Part shown: positions 17,264-25,085 of the stretch, one piece after another
How positions within the stretch are numbered: the stretch's first letter is position 1
Layout: the number at the start of each line of letters is the position of its first letter
Assembly: GCA_034406715.1 (NCBI GenBank)
Contig: CP137865.1
Coordinates: forward strand, 1,116,001-1,180,000
From: Rhodotorula mucilaginosa
Lineage: Eukaryota; Basidiomycota; Microbotryomycetes; Sporidiobolales; Sporidiobolaceae
DNA length: 64,000 bases
Direction of reading: 5' to 3'
Translations under genes and position numbers: made by a program
Notes under the pieces: generated by a model
Told to the model about the DNA's origin: nothing
What the model saw: only the letters and a program-made list of their open reading frames with translations
Database searches by the model: none

Positions 17264-18106
17264 ATGTCGCTCAGTACTTTGCGCACGGCTGTCGCGCTCG
17301 CCGTTCTCGTTCTCGTAGTTTCCGTCCTCGCTGCCGGCCATGAACCGCAGACGATCCGGCAACGAAGGCATCAAGGCAAGGCGCGCAGTTGGTGCGTATC
17401 TTTGTGTCGTGAACCCTTGCACGGGCCTTTGCGCTGACACCCGGCGGTGAGCCTTCAGGGGCCAGAAGGCCGATTCCGTCGCTCGTCGCGGTCTCCTCGA
17501 AAAGCCCGACTCAAGCTCGGCAAATCGCACCGCACTCGATACCAGTGCAAGCAATTCGTCACCACTCACTAAGACGTCCCCGTGTGGGTTCAAGAAGCAG
17601 GCGAAACGGTTGCGTCGCCGGGGTTGCAACCGAAAGGCAAAACTGGGAGAACGCTGTCAACCGGCGCAGGGCCTTTGCTGGTACGTCTCCTTATCTACTA
17701 CCCGTGCGAGTGCCTAAGGGCACTCTGCCTGAGGCGGAAGAGCTGATCTCTCCCATCTGTGCGCTTGCAGCGACGCCAAGTCGAGCTGTCTGGACGGTTA
17801 CTGCACAGCGCAGTGTTCGTCGGACTCGCTCGAAGGTTATTGCGACGCGTCGACGCCGTGCAACGCAAATCTCGGCTACGTCTGCCAGGCTGGACCGTGC
17901 CGACCACCGATCGGGGCGGTCCGCGTCTTGACGAACGAAGCTTGCGACCAAGGGGAGGGGGATACTCGATTCTGGTACGCAGAGTTTCCACCTTCCTTCC
18001 ATGTGCCTACTCGAAGTTCACTGAGTGCCTAGTCTGCGTCCGCAGTCTGCCCGGCAGAGGTATCTGTACAGATGGCGTCTGCGTTCCTTGCAGCTTGAGT
18101 AGATGA
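17264..18106 (+). CDS. Small secreted cysteine-rich protein, function unknown
   Basis: Exons 17264-17391, 17459-17680, 17771-17974 and 18046-18106 give 204 residues. Residues ~1-24 form a signal peptide with a strong hydrophobic core (VALAVLVLVVSVLAAG). A Ser/Asn-rich stretch and a basic stretch (KKQAKRLRRRGCNRK) follow. The last ~110 residues hold most of 17 cysteines, with spacing such as SCLDGYCTAQC, GYCDASTPC, GYVCQAGPC and GICTDGVCVPC, indicating many disulphides outside the cell. No membrane segment or GPI signal is seen after the signal peptide. I do not recognise the fold. It could be a wall-associated protein, a protease-inhibitor-like knot or an effector-like protein. All four exons join in frame at consensus sites, which supports a real gene. 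It lies just upstream of the transporter-glycosyltransferase fusion on the same strand. Confidence 0.72.
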
Positions 18107-18568: not shown

Positions 18569-21500
18569 ATGAGTCGAGCTGTCGGGACGCGAGCCTACTC
18601 GCTCGTGACGCTCTGTTTGCTGTCGACTGTTCTCGGCATTCTGTACGTTCACAATTCTTGCGCCTTTATTCTCGGAGAACGAAGAACGACCACGCTCATT
18701 CCATCTCTCCCGATAGTGTCCATCGAACGCATGCTCAACATCGACCCGAACGAGCAGCGCCGCGTTCCTCCAGCCTCATCCTGGTGACTGGTAAGCCACG
18801 AGGCAGTTCTGTACCCCAAACACCATCAGCCTGCGGTGAGCTGATCTCAAAGTGAATCCTCTCAGAGCTGCTCAAGCTGGCGGTGCTGATCGGCCTCGCA
18901 GCCGTCGAGTGCATCAGCGAGAAAGCAAAACTCGCCGGATTACTGTACAACTTGCCACGCCACGAGTCGCGACGCGACAGCGGGCACTCGGAGGAAATCA
19001 ACACGCAGGCGACAGCATCGCACAAGCTTCCTCCTCCGCGACTTCCGCCGCCGCCGACTATCGATGCCGCGTACGCCGTTCGTCAGAAGCGCGCGGACCG
19101 GCGCGCGACGTTGCCCGTTTCAAACGTCGAGGTGACGCTCGACGCGCCGTTGACTCCGCTGGTCATGTCTCTCCCCGCCAAGATTCACTGCGCGCCCTTG
19201 ATGAAGCGAAGCAGTGGGTCCAGCGCAGACGAAAAAGTCTCTCCTTCTATCCGGGAGGAAGTCGAGGCGCGTGCCCACTGGGTCCGCCGCGCAGAGCTCG
19301 GCGTGGCTTCGCTGCTCGTCGAAGATATCTTCTCGGGCGATTGGTGGGTGATGGCGATCCCGGCCGTTCTGTACGCCGTCCAGAACAACGTCCTGTACGT
19401 GTCGTTTGCTACCTCGTCCTCCGCGCGCAGAATCGCTGATTTCAGGCCTACAGCTACGTCGCTGCACGCATCCTCACCGTGCCAGTGTTCCAGGTGCTTC
19501 TACAGCTGCGACCCCCCGTCACGGCACTCTGCACCATGTTCATCCTCGGCCGCCGCATCATCGCTCTTCAATGGATCGCTCTCGTCATCCTCGGTCTCGG
19601 AATCGTGTGCATGCATCTCGGCGCCGTCGACTACAAGTCGGGTCGTCAGCATGGCCTCCTGCACTATGGCTTGCACGATGGGACGGCGAGCGATCACGCG
19701 CCGGGCTTGGTTGCCGCGATCATTTCCAGCTTCGCCGGCGCTTTCGCCGCGACCTACTTCGAGCACGTCGTCAAGCAGCGAACGGCGGCGGAGGGAGGCG
19801 GTAGTCTCTCTCCGACGCCGGAGCGGCTCTGGGTCCGCTGCATACAACTGTCGATGTTCAGCTGCCTGATCGGCTTCGGCATGAGCTTGTTTCAGGGAGA
19901 TCGTGCCCACCTCGATGCCATCAGCAACGTCGCGCTCGGTCTCAAGAACCTGCACGATCCCCTCCAGCCGTGGTACGCGCCGATTGCGAGCCTGCGGAGC
20001 GGCTTCTTCGACGGATTCACGGCTTCGACTTGGCTCATCGCCGGCGTCCAAGCGTTGACCGGCGTCGCCATCGCGGCCGCGATTCAGCAGGCCGACACGC
20101 TCGCAAAAGATTTCACCCTCGCCATCTCGGTCGTTCTTGCGTTCGCCTTCGCGCTCATCGTCGAGGTGCAGCCGGTCCCGACGCTCTCGTACTTTGGTGC
20201 CGCTGCCATCGTCCTCGCCGCCCTCTCGTATCGCACCGCAGGCGCCAACCCGGCGTTTCACATCGAAGTGGACCGATCGCGGGTTCTCATCACACTCCTC
20301 GTCGCTGCCGGCATCGTCTACCTCTTGTCGTTGCCGTCCGGTGACGGCTTCGCCGTGCGTGCGACGGTCGGGAAAGTGCCCGGATACGCCGCGTCGCTGA
20401 GCAAAGCGTTACTCCCGACGGCGAACTCGGCGGCTCCGACGGTGGTACCGCGCGAGGCAGTCGCTGCGGTCGACCCCCGACCTTCCATCGCGATCGTCGA
20501 CATGACGCTCGTCAACGAACCGCTGGCCGCCGCGGCGAGCGGCGTCTGCGGACTTGGCACTCATGCCTACAGGGAGTCCACCTGGGCGCCGTTCGGCTTC
20601 CCGATCCCGGTGCCGCCGGATTACCCATACTGGGTCATGAAGACGGATCAGTACGCGCTCGACGACATCCTGACGACCAAGTTCGCCACCTACGCCCGCT
20701 CGGTCCCGCTCTTGTCGTCGCCTCCTCCCGACTTCCTCTACATGCCGGTCCTGTCAGAGGTCTGGGCGAACGCGTGGGGCTGCGACGCGCCCGAATGGAA
20801 GCAGGCGGCGATGCGTGCGACTCAGTTCCTGCGCGACTTGGCGAAAAGCGTCGGAGATACCAGCTATCCGCCGATCATCTTGCCGATCACGACTATACGG
20901 AGCAACATGGACTGGGTCTTGACCCCGGAACTCATGGATGAGCTCAAAGACAAGGTCGTCCTCGTCTCGATCGAGAACGCGCCGAAAGCCCACCCCGAAG
21001 GGCTCAAATACCTCATCGACGTCCCTTGTAAGCGTATTTACTCACTATTCCGGTCGAGGTACGGGGACTAACTCGCTGCTCTTTGCAGATCCGACCTCTT
21101 TCCATCTCTCCGAGCAGCTCAAGGGCAAGAAGACCACGCTCGACGATTACTTCCTGAATAGACCTCGCCCATACTTGTGAGTCGCCCGCTTCCTTCAGCT
21201 CTCCGTGTCGAAACGACGACTGACGAAGCCGCGCGCAGGGTCCATTACGGTGCCGCGCAAACGCACCCGTGGGCGAAATCTTCGAGCGATCCGTTCAACG
21301 GTTTCGCGTTGCGCGCTGCGCTCGCCGCCGAGCTCAGGACGTACCAAGAGACGCACGCAGACAACCGCACGGCGCCAAAAGTCAAATGGGACGACATTAC
21401 GAACTCGGTCGAGCGAGCGCAGAACCTCACGCCGATCCATGCCGACATGGAGCGGTCGATGTTCTGTTTGATGCCGGCCGGCGATTCACCCTCTCGGCGC

Positions 21501-22013
21501 GCGTTCTACGAAGCGATCCAGCTCGGTTGTATACCCGTCATCTTCCGCGAGAAGAGCTACGGACGGCTGTTCCCCTCGACGGAAATGGTCAACGACGTCT
21601 CGCGGTACACCATCTTTGTCGACGAGGCGGCGTACCTCTCCGGGACGGGACCGACCTTGATGGAGCAACTGAGCGACATCAGCCTCGGCGAGATCCGCGC
21701 CAAGCAGGAGTACCTCCTGAAAGTCGCGCCAAAGTTGCAGTGGGCGCTGCCCGAACTCGACGAGTGGATCCCGCTCACGAACCCGCGCGGGGCGGTGCCG
21801 ATCGCTGGCATGCCCGTCTGGAACCGCACGGTCGCGCTCGAGAGAATCAAGGACGACGAGCCGCTCGAGGACGCGTTCGCGCTTCTGTTGAAGGAGCTGA
21901 CGGCGATTCGAGATGGACAATGGCGCGGACGACATGCGCACGATTTGCGTCGCGGTCTACGTCGGTTCGCGGTGGGACGGTTGGCTAAGCAGCTGCTCGC
22001 TCATTTCGAGTGA
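18569..22013 (+). CDS. Nucleotide-sugar transporter fused to exostosin (GT47) glycosyltransferase
   Basis: Exons 18569-18642, 18717-18790, 18866-19398, 19446-21027, 21089-21176 and 21239-22013 give 1,041 residues. Residues ~10-500 match the SLC35A-type nucleotide-sugar transporter family (UDP-Gal/UDP-GlcNAc/CMP-sialate): SSLILVTELLKLAVLI, IPAVLYAVQNNVLY, VFQVLLQLRPPVTAL and LQWIALVILGLGIV, then several more helices to YFGAAAIVLAALSY. One further helix (RVLITLLVAAGIVYLLSLPS, about 500-520) could act as the stem anchor. Residues ~590-990 resemble exostosin, with the diagnostic SMFCLMPAGDSPSRR and AIQLGCIPVIF at ~850-880. Transporters of this family import activated sugars into the Golgi, where GT47 enzymes work, so the fusion would couple supply and use. 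Exon 4 is a single 1,582-nt exon crossing both parts, so a false merge of two genes is unlikely. Donor and acceptor sugars are unknown. Confidence 0.87.
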
Positions 22014-22280: not shown

Positions 22281-23392
22281 TCAGTACCCACCAGCGCCCG
22301 GAGCGGTCTCTCCCTCGCGGCGGAGACTCAGCAAGAGGTCCTTGAACCGGGACAGGTCCTGCTTGCTCTTGGTGGTCGTCTTGGACCGCGAGTCTTGCAG
22401 GTCGACGAGGGTGCAGATCCGTTCCCACGTTGTGCCCTTGGCGAGCGAGTCCGTCAACTCGGTCTTGAACGCCTCTTCGTCGTCCCTGCGGGGTTTGGTC
22501 GACGGTGAGTTTGACGAGAGCAACGAGCCAATCGAGCGCCGGTCTAGGCAACAACGCCAAGGCGCACGTACTTGTTCTGCGCAATCGCCTTTTCCTTTTT
22601 GGCGTTGTAGTCTTTGTAAAAGTTGTCGATGGCATTCCGGGCCTTTGCGATCGTGTCCTCCTTCTTGCGCGCCGCCTCCTCTTCCCGCTTGGCGATGTCG
22701 GCTTTTTGTTGCTCGCGCCAGTTACTGCGGGGACAGCAGAGTACAGCTTAGTGGCCAGGATCGAGATAGACAAGCAGCTGCGCGCAACCGTCGCGGCAAA
22801 CACTTGAAGACAACGCGTGCTTGTACTGACGGGTAGGAGTCGCGGGACCGAGTCAAACTCACCGGATAAACTCTGACTCTCCTTCTTCCTGCGGCGCGGG
22901 AGCAGGTGTGGAAGCAGCGGGCGGCGAGAAAGCGGCGGGTTCGTGTGTTGGAGTCCCGTTCAGACCGTTCTCGTGGGGCTGCAAAAGCAAGGTGCGGGCG
23001 ATCAGTCCAAGAGTTCCGGCACACCCCGCCATGCAAAGACTGACCTGTTCGCTGGGAATCTCGATCTCTGGGTACTCTTGTTCGAACGCGGCAAACTCGT
23101 TGGTGCCCGTGACCGAGACTTGTTGCGGGACCTGACTCGCGGCGGCGGGTGCAGATGCGGACGTCGGAGAAGAGACGGTGGCGGCAAAGTCGCCGAGGGC
23201 ATCGTCGTCTCCGCCGTCAAGATCGGGGAACGCGGCTGCCGACTGCTCGTAGTCCTTGTCCGGCTGGTTCGAGTCGGCGGGGGACGCGAACGAGCTGGCG
23301 TCGGCGCCGAGGGCAGCGCGTTCGCGGGCGAGGAAGTCACTCGCCGGGTCCTGCTGTTGCTGGCTAGCGTCCGATCCAAACAGGTCTTCCAT
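22281..23392 (-). CDS. CLC1: Clathrin light chain
   Basis: Regulatory subunit of the clathrin triskelion in endocytosis and Golgi-endosome transport. The ATG at 23392 gives MEDLFGSD, followed by an acidic, Ala/Ser-rich N-terminal region containing [12 protein letters not shown], which matches the conserved light-chain acidic segment. The central heavy-chain-binding helix reads [20 protein letters not shown] then [15 protein letters not shown]. The C-terminus ([16 protein letters not shown], then [15 protein letters not shown]) matches the family's conserved end. Introns interrupt the gene near 22,985-23,040, 22,730-22,860 and 22,500-22,570. The stop is at 22281, 268 bp from the end of the convergent fusion gene. 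Confidence 0.92.
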
Positions 23393-25085
23393 CGCAGCTG
23401 CTCGTCGTCGGGAGTGGTTGGAAGGTGACACGACGCCGCTCCACTTCGACCCGCTAGCCGCTCTGACACTCAACCCGTGATTGCACGCTGCTCGAGACGG
23501 TCGCCTTGAATGCTGGTCTATAGCATGTACTGCCGCGAGCAGGAGATTTGGCCGCTCTCGCATCGCCTGCTTTCTCCTCTCGCATCGCGTCACCGCTCTT
23601 GACCTCAAGCTGCTCCCATCGAGGCTTTTCTGAAGCTGACATGCTACTTCAGGCAAGGCGTACGGCCATTGCAGGCGGAGGCGGAGGCATAGACCTACCC
23701 ACACTGGAGCCTCCATTCGTATACGCAGCTGGGCTTCTCGCTTCTGCCGTGCCGCAGTTGCGGTGGACGCTCAGGAAGTTGGGCGCCAGTGGCCGGCTAT
23801 GCCAAGCTTCCCGGAACGCAGAGATAAAACACATGCTTCGTTGGGTCTGATTGTCTACAGTAAGCCCTTTGTCGCCCCCTTCGCTCGCCGACAGGCTCGC
23901 CCAATCTTCCAGCCGCGCCCGTGCGCCAAGCCGCGCTTCGCCGCGACGTCGGCATGTGCCACACCGGCATTGTCTCTCTTCTCGCATTGTTGCGGCGTAC
24001 AGTGTACATATAGGGGCTGACGATCCTCGCTGCGGCTCCGACGTTCGCGAGCAGCTGGTCGGTTCACGCCTGGTGCGCTGGGCGCCAAAGCTTCGTGCGA
24101 CGTCCTTCGAGGGCCAGGAAGCGGAGAGCTGCTCTTCGTCCCTGTACAGTACCGCCTGGAGTATTGTACTCATCGCTGCAGCGCCCAGACTACAGTATGC
24201 GCCGCGCCTTTGCCAAGGATATCGCAGTCGGACTTGATCGGGCGGGCTCATTCGGACACGAAGCACCGTCCGTCACGGGGCCGAGGTCTAGCCTATCATT
24301 CACAGTCCAGACTCCAGACAGTACAGCTGTCGTCTGTAGCCGGGTACGCAGACGAGACTTGTTGGACCCGCGGGCCGCGGTCGATCTCGGTCGACTCTTG
24401 CAGCAGGCGGAACCACGGTCCCCGTTGCCACACGCGCGAACAGTTCAGCTCTCGATCACCTCCAGACGTGGTGCCTGATCTGGACCATTTTTATACCAGA
24501 GAATGGGCAATCTCGTATGCACATATATAGGCCTGCAGCTACAGCTGCACTGTGCCGCCTGTGCGGCTGCTTCGAAGCGACGGTCCCTGCTCACTATCTA
24601 ACTCTCGAGTTCACTCTGGAGGTCCTGTATCGCAGATAAAGTGCTGGTCCAGCTTCGATCGCAGCAGCTGCTGCATGCTCATGCAGCTCGACGCAGCGCA
24701 TGAAAAGGCGCACGCGACCAAACCGGATGCCATCCTCCGCGCCTCGCCTTCCTCTTCTCCCCTAAATTAGCTCACGTGATCTCTTCTGATTGGCTGCCCG
24801 GGTCTAAAGTGGGGCGATCGAACCGGTCTCTTTGTTCTCCTTTCGCTCTTGGTTTTTCCGCCCGTGCTTCGGTATCTCTGCTCCTACCCTCCCGGGACTC
24901 CACAGCTTCGGTCTCCGTCTCCACAGCTGCCAAGGCGCCGATTGCTCTGATTCGAGAGAGGAGACCCGCTTCTGCTCTTCCTCATCGCTTTGAGCTGCTG
25001 CAGCTCCTGCGCGACGCCGCCTCGCTCTCAAAGATCACAGCGCCCTCCCCCACCTCTGCTGCAAAACCTCCGGAAACCAGTCAAC
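23393..25085. other. long intergenic region, divergent CLC1-MFS promoter
   Basis: About 1.7 kb, the longest gene-free stretch in the window. Several open frames of 70-200 codons occur but have Arg/Ser/Pro-rich, frame-shadow composition and no family motif. The half nearest the MFS gene is rich in CAGCTG and CTGCAG palindromes (24,530-24,690) and has a TATATA-like patch near 24,525. It may hold 5' leader exons or a non-coding transcript; RNA evidence would be needed to say so. Confidence 0.5.
24772..24796 (+). promoter_or_regulatory. paired E-box and inverted CCAAT box upstream of the MFS gene
   Basis: TCACGTGA, a perfect 8-bp palindromic E-box at 24772-24779, is followed after 7 bp by TGATTGGCTG (24787-24796), the reverse of a CCAATCA box. 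This is a classic bHLH plus Hap/NF-Y arrangement. It sits 290 bp before the MFS ATG at 25086. The same TGATTGGCTG string recurs at 60885-60894. Confidence 0.5.

Follow-up and report, generated by a model that had tools for sequence, protein, structure and literature searches.

A nucleotide-sugar transporter and a GT47 exostosin-type glycosyltransferase in one polypeptide of Rhodotorula mucilaginosa and other Microbotryomycetes

Are a nucleotide-sugar transporter and an exostosin-type glycosyltransferase joined in a single protein of Rhodotorula mucilaginosa, and on which side of the membrane would the enzyme then act? The locus that raises this question is a six-exon gene on the + strand (18569-22013) of the window analyzed here, a stretch of 64,000 nucleotides (assembly GCA_034406715.1, contig CP137865.1, positions 1,116,001 to 1,180,000) with a G+C of 0.606. 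Five short introns of the GT-AG type interrupt the gene, whose product has 1,037 residues. A Pfam scan of this product finds both domains that an earlier, sequence-only reading had named: Nuc_sug_transp (PF04142) at residues 203-485 (19324..20231, + strand, crossing intron 3; 134.2 bits, cut-off 27) and Exostosin_GT47 (PF03016) at residues 747-911 (21015..21632, + strand, crossing introns 4 and 5; 70.4 bits, cut-off 33.4), the latter match including FCLMPAGDSPSRR and GCIPVIF. We propose, at a probability of about two in three, that the product of this gene is a single secretory-pathway protein with eleven helices, in which a uridine diphosphate (UDP)-sugar is imported and then used by the tethered, lumenal GT47 domain.

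That both domains share one polypeptide, as the sequence-only reading had claimed, is borne out by the gene structure. Exon 4 (19454..21027, + strand) spans the transporter/GT47 boundary as one open frame of 1,574 nucleotides that encodes most of the transporter, an eleventh hydrophobic segment, a stem and the first part of the GT47 domain, and neither an intron nor a stop codon separates the domains in the raw sequence. There is also no in-frame methionine between residues 369 and 576, so translation of an anchored GT47 protein on its own would lack an AUG in the window gene, though it could still use a near-cognate codon or a different first exon. The linker lacks methionine in 5 of 26 homologues and holds one or more in the other 21, and the no-AUG argument therefore holds for some species only. 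The six exons and the boundary-crossing exon of the earlier reading stand, although it gave that exon 1,582 nucleotides; its 1,041 codons fit an alternative intron-3 acceptor that is in frame, changes the product by four residues, and is disfavored by orthologue spacing and by the 93%-identical unspliced relative P0003. The remaining exons are likewise on the + strand. Exon 1 (18569..18642) begins with the ATG at 18569, equivalent to the first residue of the R. dairenensis record, and encodes the first transmembrane helix (TM1) of the transporter; exon 2 (18717..18790) encodes SSLILVTELLKL, which matches the orthologues; and exon 3 (18866..19394) encodes the remainder of TM2, a long loop at about residues 80-175 that has low confidence in an orthologue model, and the start of TM3. 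Exon 5 (21089..21176) follows the gene model, and exon 6 (21239..22013) carries the GT47 core and the stop codon.

The same architecture recurs in relatives. Both domains were present in 26 of the 29 homologues recovered with the whole protein, and the remaining three were two unspliced reads and one GT47-only paralogue. The fusions comprise 7 from Rhodotorula, 5 from Rhodosporidiobolus, 6 from Sporobolomyces, 3 from Phenoliferia, one each from Meredithblackwellia and Pseudohyphozyma, 2 from Microbotryomycetes sp. and 1 unnamed; all 25 named ones belong to Microbotryomycetes. Their six named genera fall in Sporidiobolales, Kriegeriales and one unplaced family, and the nearest named relatives of the window protein are those of R. 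dairenensis (81%) and R. pacifica (79%). Domain order is identical across the aligned fusions, as the sequence-only reading had anticipated for related species. Homologue searches required shared five-residue words and scored the best 7,995 candidates; none of the named matches among these is a fusion outside Microbotryomycetes, but Microbotryum and Leucosporidium were not returned either, so that absence is unproven. Similarly, no second fusion was seen in the window genome (20.35 Mb, 19 contigs), where GT47 occurs at 3 places and Nuc_sug_transp in 12 pieces and the two coincide only here; this domain search works exon by exon on the best-scoring candidates, and weak pieces may escape it.

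Trees of the transporter and GT47 halves from 25 fusions share 15 of 22 splits, with a distance correlation of 0.83 and no conflicting splits at a bootstrap of at least 95, a level that only 5 transporter and 13 GT47 splits reach. This agreement fits joint descent of the two halves and is partial evidence for it. The unspliced reads P0003 and P0005, which include intron translation, were removed from all alignments; P0023, P0028 and P0029 were left out of the two-tree comparison, and hence of the site-change counts and clade comparison described below; and P0027 and P0023 were left out of the structure alignments. P0027 was trimmed by 340 N-terminal residues for the two-tree comparison and by 330 for the pocket alignment. 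The analyses designated A1 and A2 drew on 4 of 28 rows (the 28 being the window protein, the 26 two-domain matches and P0029) and 3 of 27 rows, respectively. P0027, from Phenoliferia psychrophenolica, carries about 340 surplus N-terminal residues, probably from a neighboring gene that was merged in. A further protein, P0042, has 501 residues and no GT47 domain and aligns to 98% of the transporter half at 35%; it could represent a separate ancestral transporter or an intron-truncated read.

Structure models are available for two orthologues, R. dairenensis P0001 and Pseudohyphozyma bogoriensis P0022, and the fold evidence comes from an orthologue model. There, the transporter half adopts the ten-helix drug/metabolite-transporter fold, and the GT47 half (20460..22013, + strand; start approximate, from the structure match at 563-1007 of the orthologue) adopts a GT-B fold like the GT47 domains of EXT proteins. 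Sequence similarity to the solved EXT1 is non-significant (E 0.23). EXT1 and EXT2 combine GT47 with GT64, whereas the Pfam scan, which lists five families at E values of up to 1, contains no GT64 family; an EXT1/EXT2-type heparan sulfate polymerase was thus rejected for lack of the GT64 half. Relative to the exostosin family (EXT1/EXT2, EXTL3), in which GT47 sits behind a lone anchor, the fusion places it behind a transporter. Relative to SLC35A1, SLC35A2, SLC35A3 and their fungal relatives, the fusion has an extra hydrophobic segment, a C-terminal enzyme and a long loop after TM2. This TM2-TM3 loop (about residues 71-195; window 18928-19302) is modeled with low confidence and poorly conserved, and the mouse cytidine monophosphate (CMP)-sialic acid transporter has only about 20 residues at its position.

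The eleventh hydrophobic segment, which the sequence-only reading overlooked, bears on the side of the membrane where GT47 would lie. SLC35 transporters have ten helices with both termini in the cytosol (PMC8411240), so a C-terminal enzyme would be cytosolic unless the chain crosses the membrane once more. Residues 503-521 (20283..20339, + strand; VLITLLVAAGIVYLLSLPS; mean hydropathy 2.23), presumed to be a type II-style GT47 anchor, would provide that crossing and place GT47 in the Golgi lumen. Across the 26 homologues, the best 19-residue stretch of the linker has a hydropathy of 1.25-2.77, and 3-5 basic residues directly precede the segment in all 26 (2 in the window). Segment identity to the window is 85% in R. 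dairenensis, 75% in R. pacifica and 0-31% elsewhere. Both models render it as a helix (501-519 in P0001, 517-534 in P0022). In the Sporobolomyces GT47-only paralogue P0029, a hydrophobic segment that aligns with this one precedes the stem, and the other GT47-only sequences, judged by eye, have one near the N-terminus. We consider this apparent homology to the GT47-only anchor a stronger argument for the topology than the hydropathy score. The features of a type II Golgi glycosyltransferase are accordingly present as an anchor-like segment and a stem, but behind ten other helices, and the lumenal side is the one we infer. The stem (residues 520-555 of the R. dairenensis model) has low confidence and is 19-66% identical to the window among homologues, and the GT47 half carries sequons at residues 822, 842 and 975. 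Plant MUR3, ARAD1 and IRX10 are members of the GT47 exostosin family. For plant IRX10L, MUR3 and ARAD1, the C-terminal catalytic domains are described as lumenal (PMC3283625). In the simplest reading, an entire type II GT47 gene, anchor included, would have been joined behind a transporter gene and the enzyme kept lumenal. The eleven-helix topology, whose main support is the homology to the GT47-only form, would give the fusion mechanistic sense.

Under the proposed arrangement, helices 1-10 would form an SLC35A-type nucleotide-sugar transporter with both ends cytosolic, helix 11 would be the retained type II signal anchor that crosses into the lumen, and the catalytic domain would hang by a flexible stem at the transporter exit. 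The transporter half would import a UDP-sugar and the GT47 half would pass the sugar to a cell-wall or extracellular glycan, with a 1:1 stoichiometry and a shared location of importer and enzyme as the outcome. We infer the Golgi location, the lumenal side, import, transfer and the use of imported donor by the attached enzyme alike.

A number of observations, from here to the discussion of the anchor, weigh against this reading. One is the existence of the same enzyme type without a transporter. A profile search with the GT47 half returned 21 proteins, 17 of them named and of the same class; seven are GT47-only, all from Sporobolomyces (P0029-P0035), and share the anchor, stem and GT47 domain of the fusion but lack its transporter. 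The enzyme type can thus exist unattached. A separate SLC35A-type gene (C4, L004), with pieces 43-79% identical to the Lentinula transporter P0054, is likewise present in the window genome, and together these genes indicate that the enzyme family does not depend on a covalently attached supplier. The same contig has two further GT47 places, each separated from every transporter piece found by roughly 100 kb or more. Of the seven GT47-only proteins, six make up a single clade (100/99) in a tree built from 35 GT47 halves, and the seventh, that of S. blumeae, groups with five Sporobolomyces fusions (100/100). Placing the root towards Kriegeriaceae would make the clade of six the sister group of the Sporobolomyces fusions, with moderate support (89/88), and on that assumption the GT47-only forms appear to be partial copies of later origin. 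Five of the seven are encoded within 1-5 locus tags of their own strain's fusion, and this proximity hints at a small glycan cluster in those five species.

A second concern is the transporter half of the clade to which the window belongs (the window species, R. dairenensis, R. pacifica and R. sphaerocarpa). With substrate-pocket positions taken from the SLC35A1/A2 table in PMC8411240, ten positions (Q129, G239 and S213 excluded) are conserved throughout the readable rows of the 23 other fusions. In all four clade members, the K148 position is occupied by R and that of N235 by C or A (R and C in the window protein), while all 23 other fusions and all 16 separate transporters aligned keep both residues; these 16 are the author's selection among 48 transporter matches. 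All four also carry A-G at the S213 pair, although S213 cannot be placed on a single column. Furthermore, of 158 transporter sites that show no variation among 21 other fusions, 52 are changed in all four species, 30 of the 52 to one shared state (at least one a shared gap), relative to 11 of 107 otherwise invariant GT47 sites. When the window clade was excluded from the reference rows and four other multi-species clades were examined, changed sites amounted to 0-7% in the transporter and 0-1% in GT47. The stem branch of the clade is 2.02 for the transporter versus 0.56 for GT47 (1.60-1.86 versus 0.45-0.51 on one fixed topology). Within the clade the transporter is also faster (0.96-1.45 versus 0.63-0.70), which leaves room for relaxed constraint, while in the rest of the tree it is the slower half (3.08-3.88 versus 4.75-4.86). 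We read this as a change of substrate or role in the transporter half of this clade. An alternative, to which we give somewhat less than even odds, accepts the fusion but holds that in these species the transporter half handles another substrate or serves as a non-transporting anchor or scaffold for GT47. Against it, K to R preserves charge; the positions of E75, K78, N126, Y130, T152, Q278 and K297 are retained in all four species and Q125 in three, including the window (R. dairenensis has E); and in PMC8411240 the N210A mutant of SLC35A1 retains activity, although N235A of SLC35A2 is slightly reduced. Plain decay is unlikely because the frame is open and core identity between the window and R. 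dairenensis is 85% for the transporter and 84% for GT47. As for the substrate, the fusions depart from SLC35A2 in having I (L in the window clade) at the Q129 position in readable rows and S at the G239 position. A UDP-galactose-specific, SLC35A2-type transporter was rejected, since Q129 and Q278 are proposed as a pair that holds the UDP beta-phosphate in SLC35A2 (PMC8411240) and the fusions keep Q278 but replace Q129. The hand-over is least secure in the very species examined, a point that the sequence-only reading missed, and R. toruloides, whose orthologue P0012 has an intact pocket, would be a better test. The glycosyltransferase RHTO_00642, which appears among transporter BLAST results in PMC12628781, may be the R. 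toruloides orthologue and is not used here.

Further doubt attaches to the anchor. The pTM (predicted template modeling) values of 0.52 and 0.55 mean that the models do not fix the placement of the transporter and GT47 halves relative to each other. The segment itself has low to middling pLDDT (predicted local distance difference test) values of about 60 in P0001 and 55-74 in P0022; shuffled linkers match the observed peak hydropathy in 36 of 1000 cases for the window and in 0-172 of 1000 for the 26 homologues; and only 8 of 28 rows have 10 or fewer matches. The shuffle counts, along with a modest hydropathy of 1.25-1.50 in 5 of 26 homologues, would suit a segment that does not cross the membrane and a cytosolic GT47 that works ahead of import or with lipids or cytosolic molecules as acceptors. 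We regard this as improbable in view of the 18-19-residue helix in both models, the basic residues in every homologue, the aligned segment of P0029 and the lumenal plant enzymes. Slightly less improbable, but still doubtful, is cleavage of a fused precursor in the stem that would separate the transporter from a GT47 that is secreted or free in the lumen; stem cleavage is known for Golgi enzymes and the stem is poorly conserved and of low confidence, yet synthesis of GT47 would remain tied to the transporter even so. Finally, fusion artefacts are frequent in automated annotation (PMC12964723), and the surplus residues of P0027 look like a merge, but the open exon 4, the methionine-free stretch between residues 369 and 576 and the identical order across several genera in 25 named records led us to reject a gene-model merge, the wrong joining of two adjacent genes, as exceedingly improbable. 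Overall, we retain the eleven-helix reading, in which functional coupling of import and transfer is plausible and is most doubtful in the window's clade.

Around the fusion gene, a gene for clathrin light chain lies downstream on the opposite strand (22281-23398, - strand; two PF01086 pieces at 57 and 36 bits), and an upstream open frame (17733-18032, + strand) encodes a cysteine-rich product with no Pfam match above cut-off. An Rfam scan of the window returned nothing at the gathering score.

The sequence-only reading knew of no described example of such a fusion. This holds for the titles and abstract beginnings among the literature matches listed, none of which announces a transporter-transferase fusion, within a scope that leaves most subscription papers and bioRxiv preprints outside; in databases, by comparison, the architecture is already visible, since the P. 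bogoriensis record P0022 names both domains. Known assemblies likewise unite a nucleotide-sugar importer with its user. In work by Sprong from 2003, the UDP-galactose transporter reportedly assembled with ceramide galactosyltransferase. MGATs also assemble non-covalently with SLC35 transporters (PMC6453868). Such partners are separate proteins, whereas the fusion ties them covalently and has been passed down in many related fungi.

As of 2021, the sole reported fungal GT47 enzyme was from Cryptococcus neoformans, according to PMC8355462, and the fusion adds to this very short list. Separate partners make it hard to test whether a Golgi glycosyltransferase takes its donor from the bulk lumen or from the transporter it is paired with; here, a natural covalent pair, nearby GT47-only paralogues in Sporobolomyces and a clade with a changed transporter constitute a matched test set. 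More tentatively, and in our estimate unlikely, the fusion could be a single-chain import-and-transfer machine in which the nucleotide sugar would exit the transporter right next to the active site of the tethered GT47, so that its donor is reserved for one glycan, with an importer that later switched substrate in the window's clade while still bound to the same enzyme. If that were true, these yeasts would record how the specificity of a transporter-enzyme pair is re-tuned.
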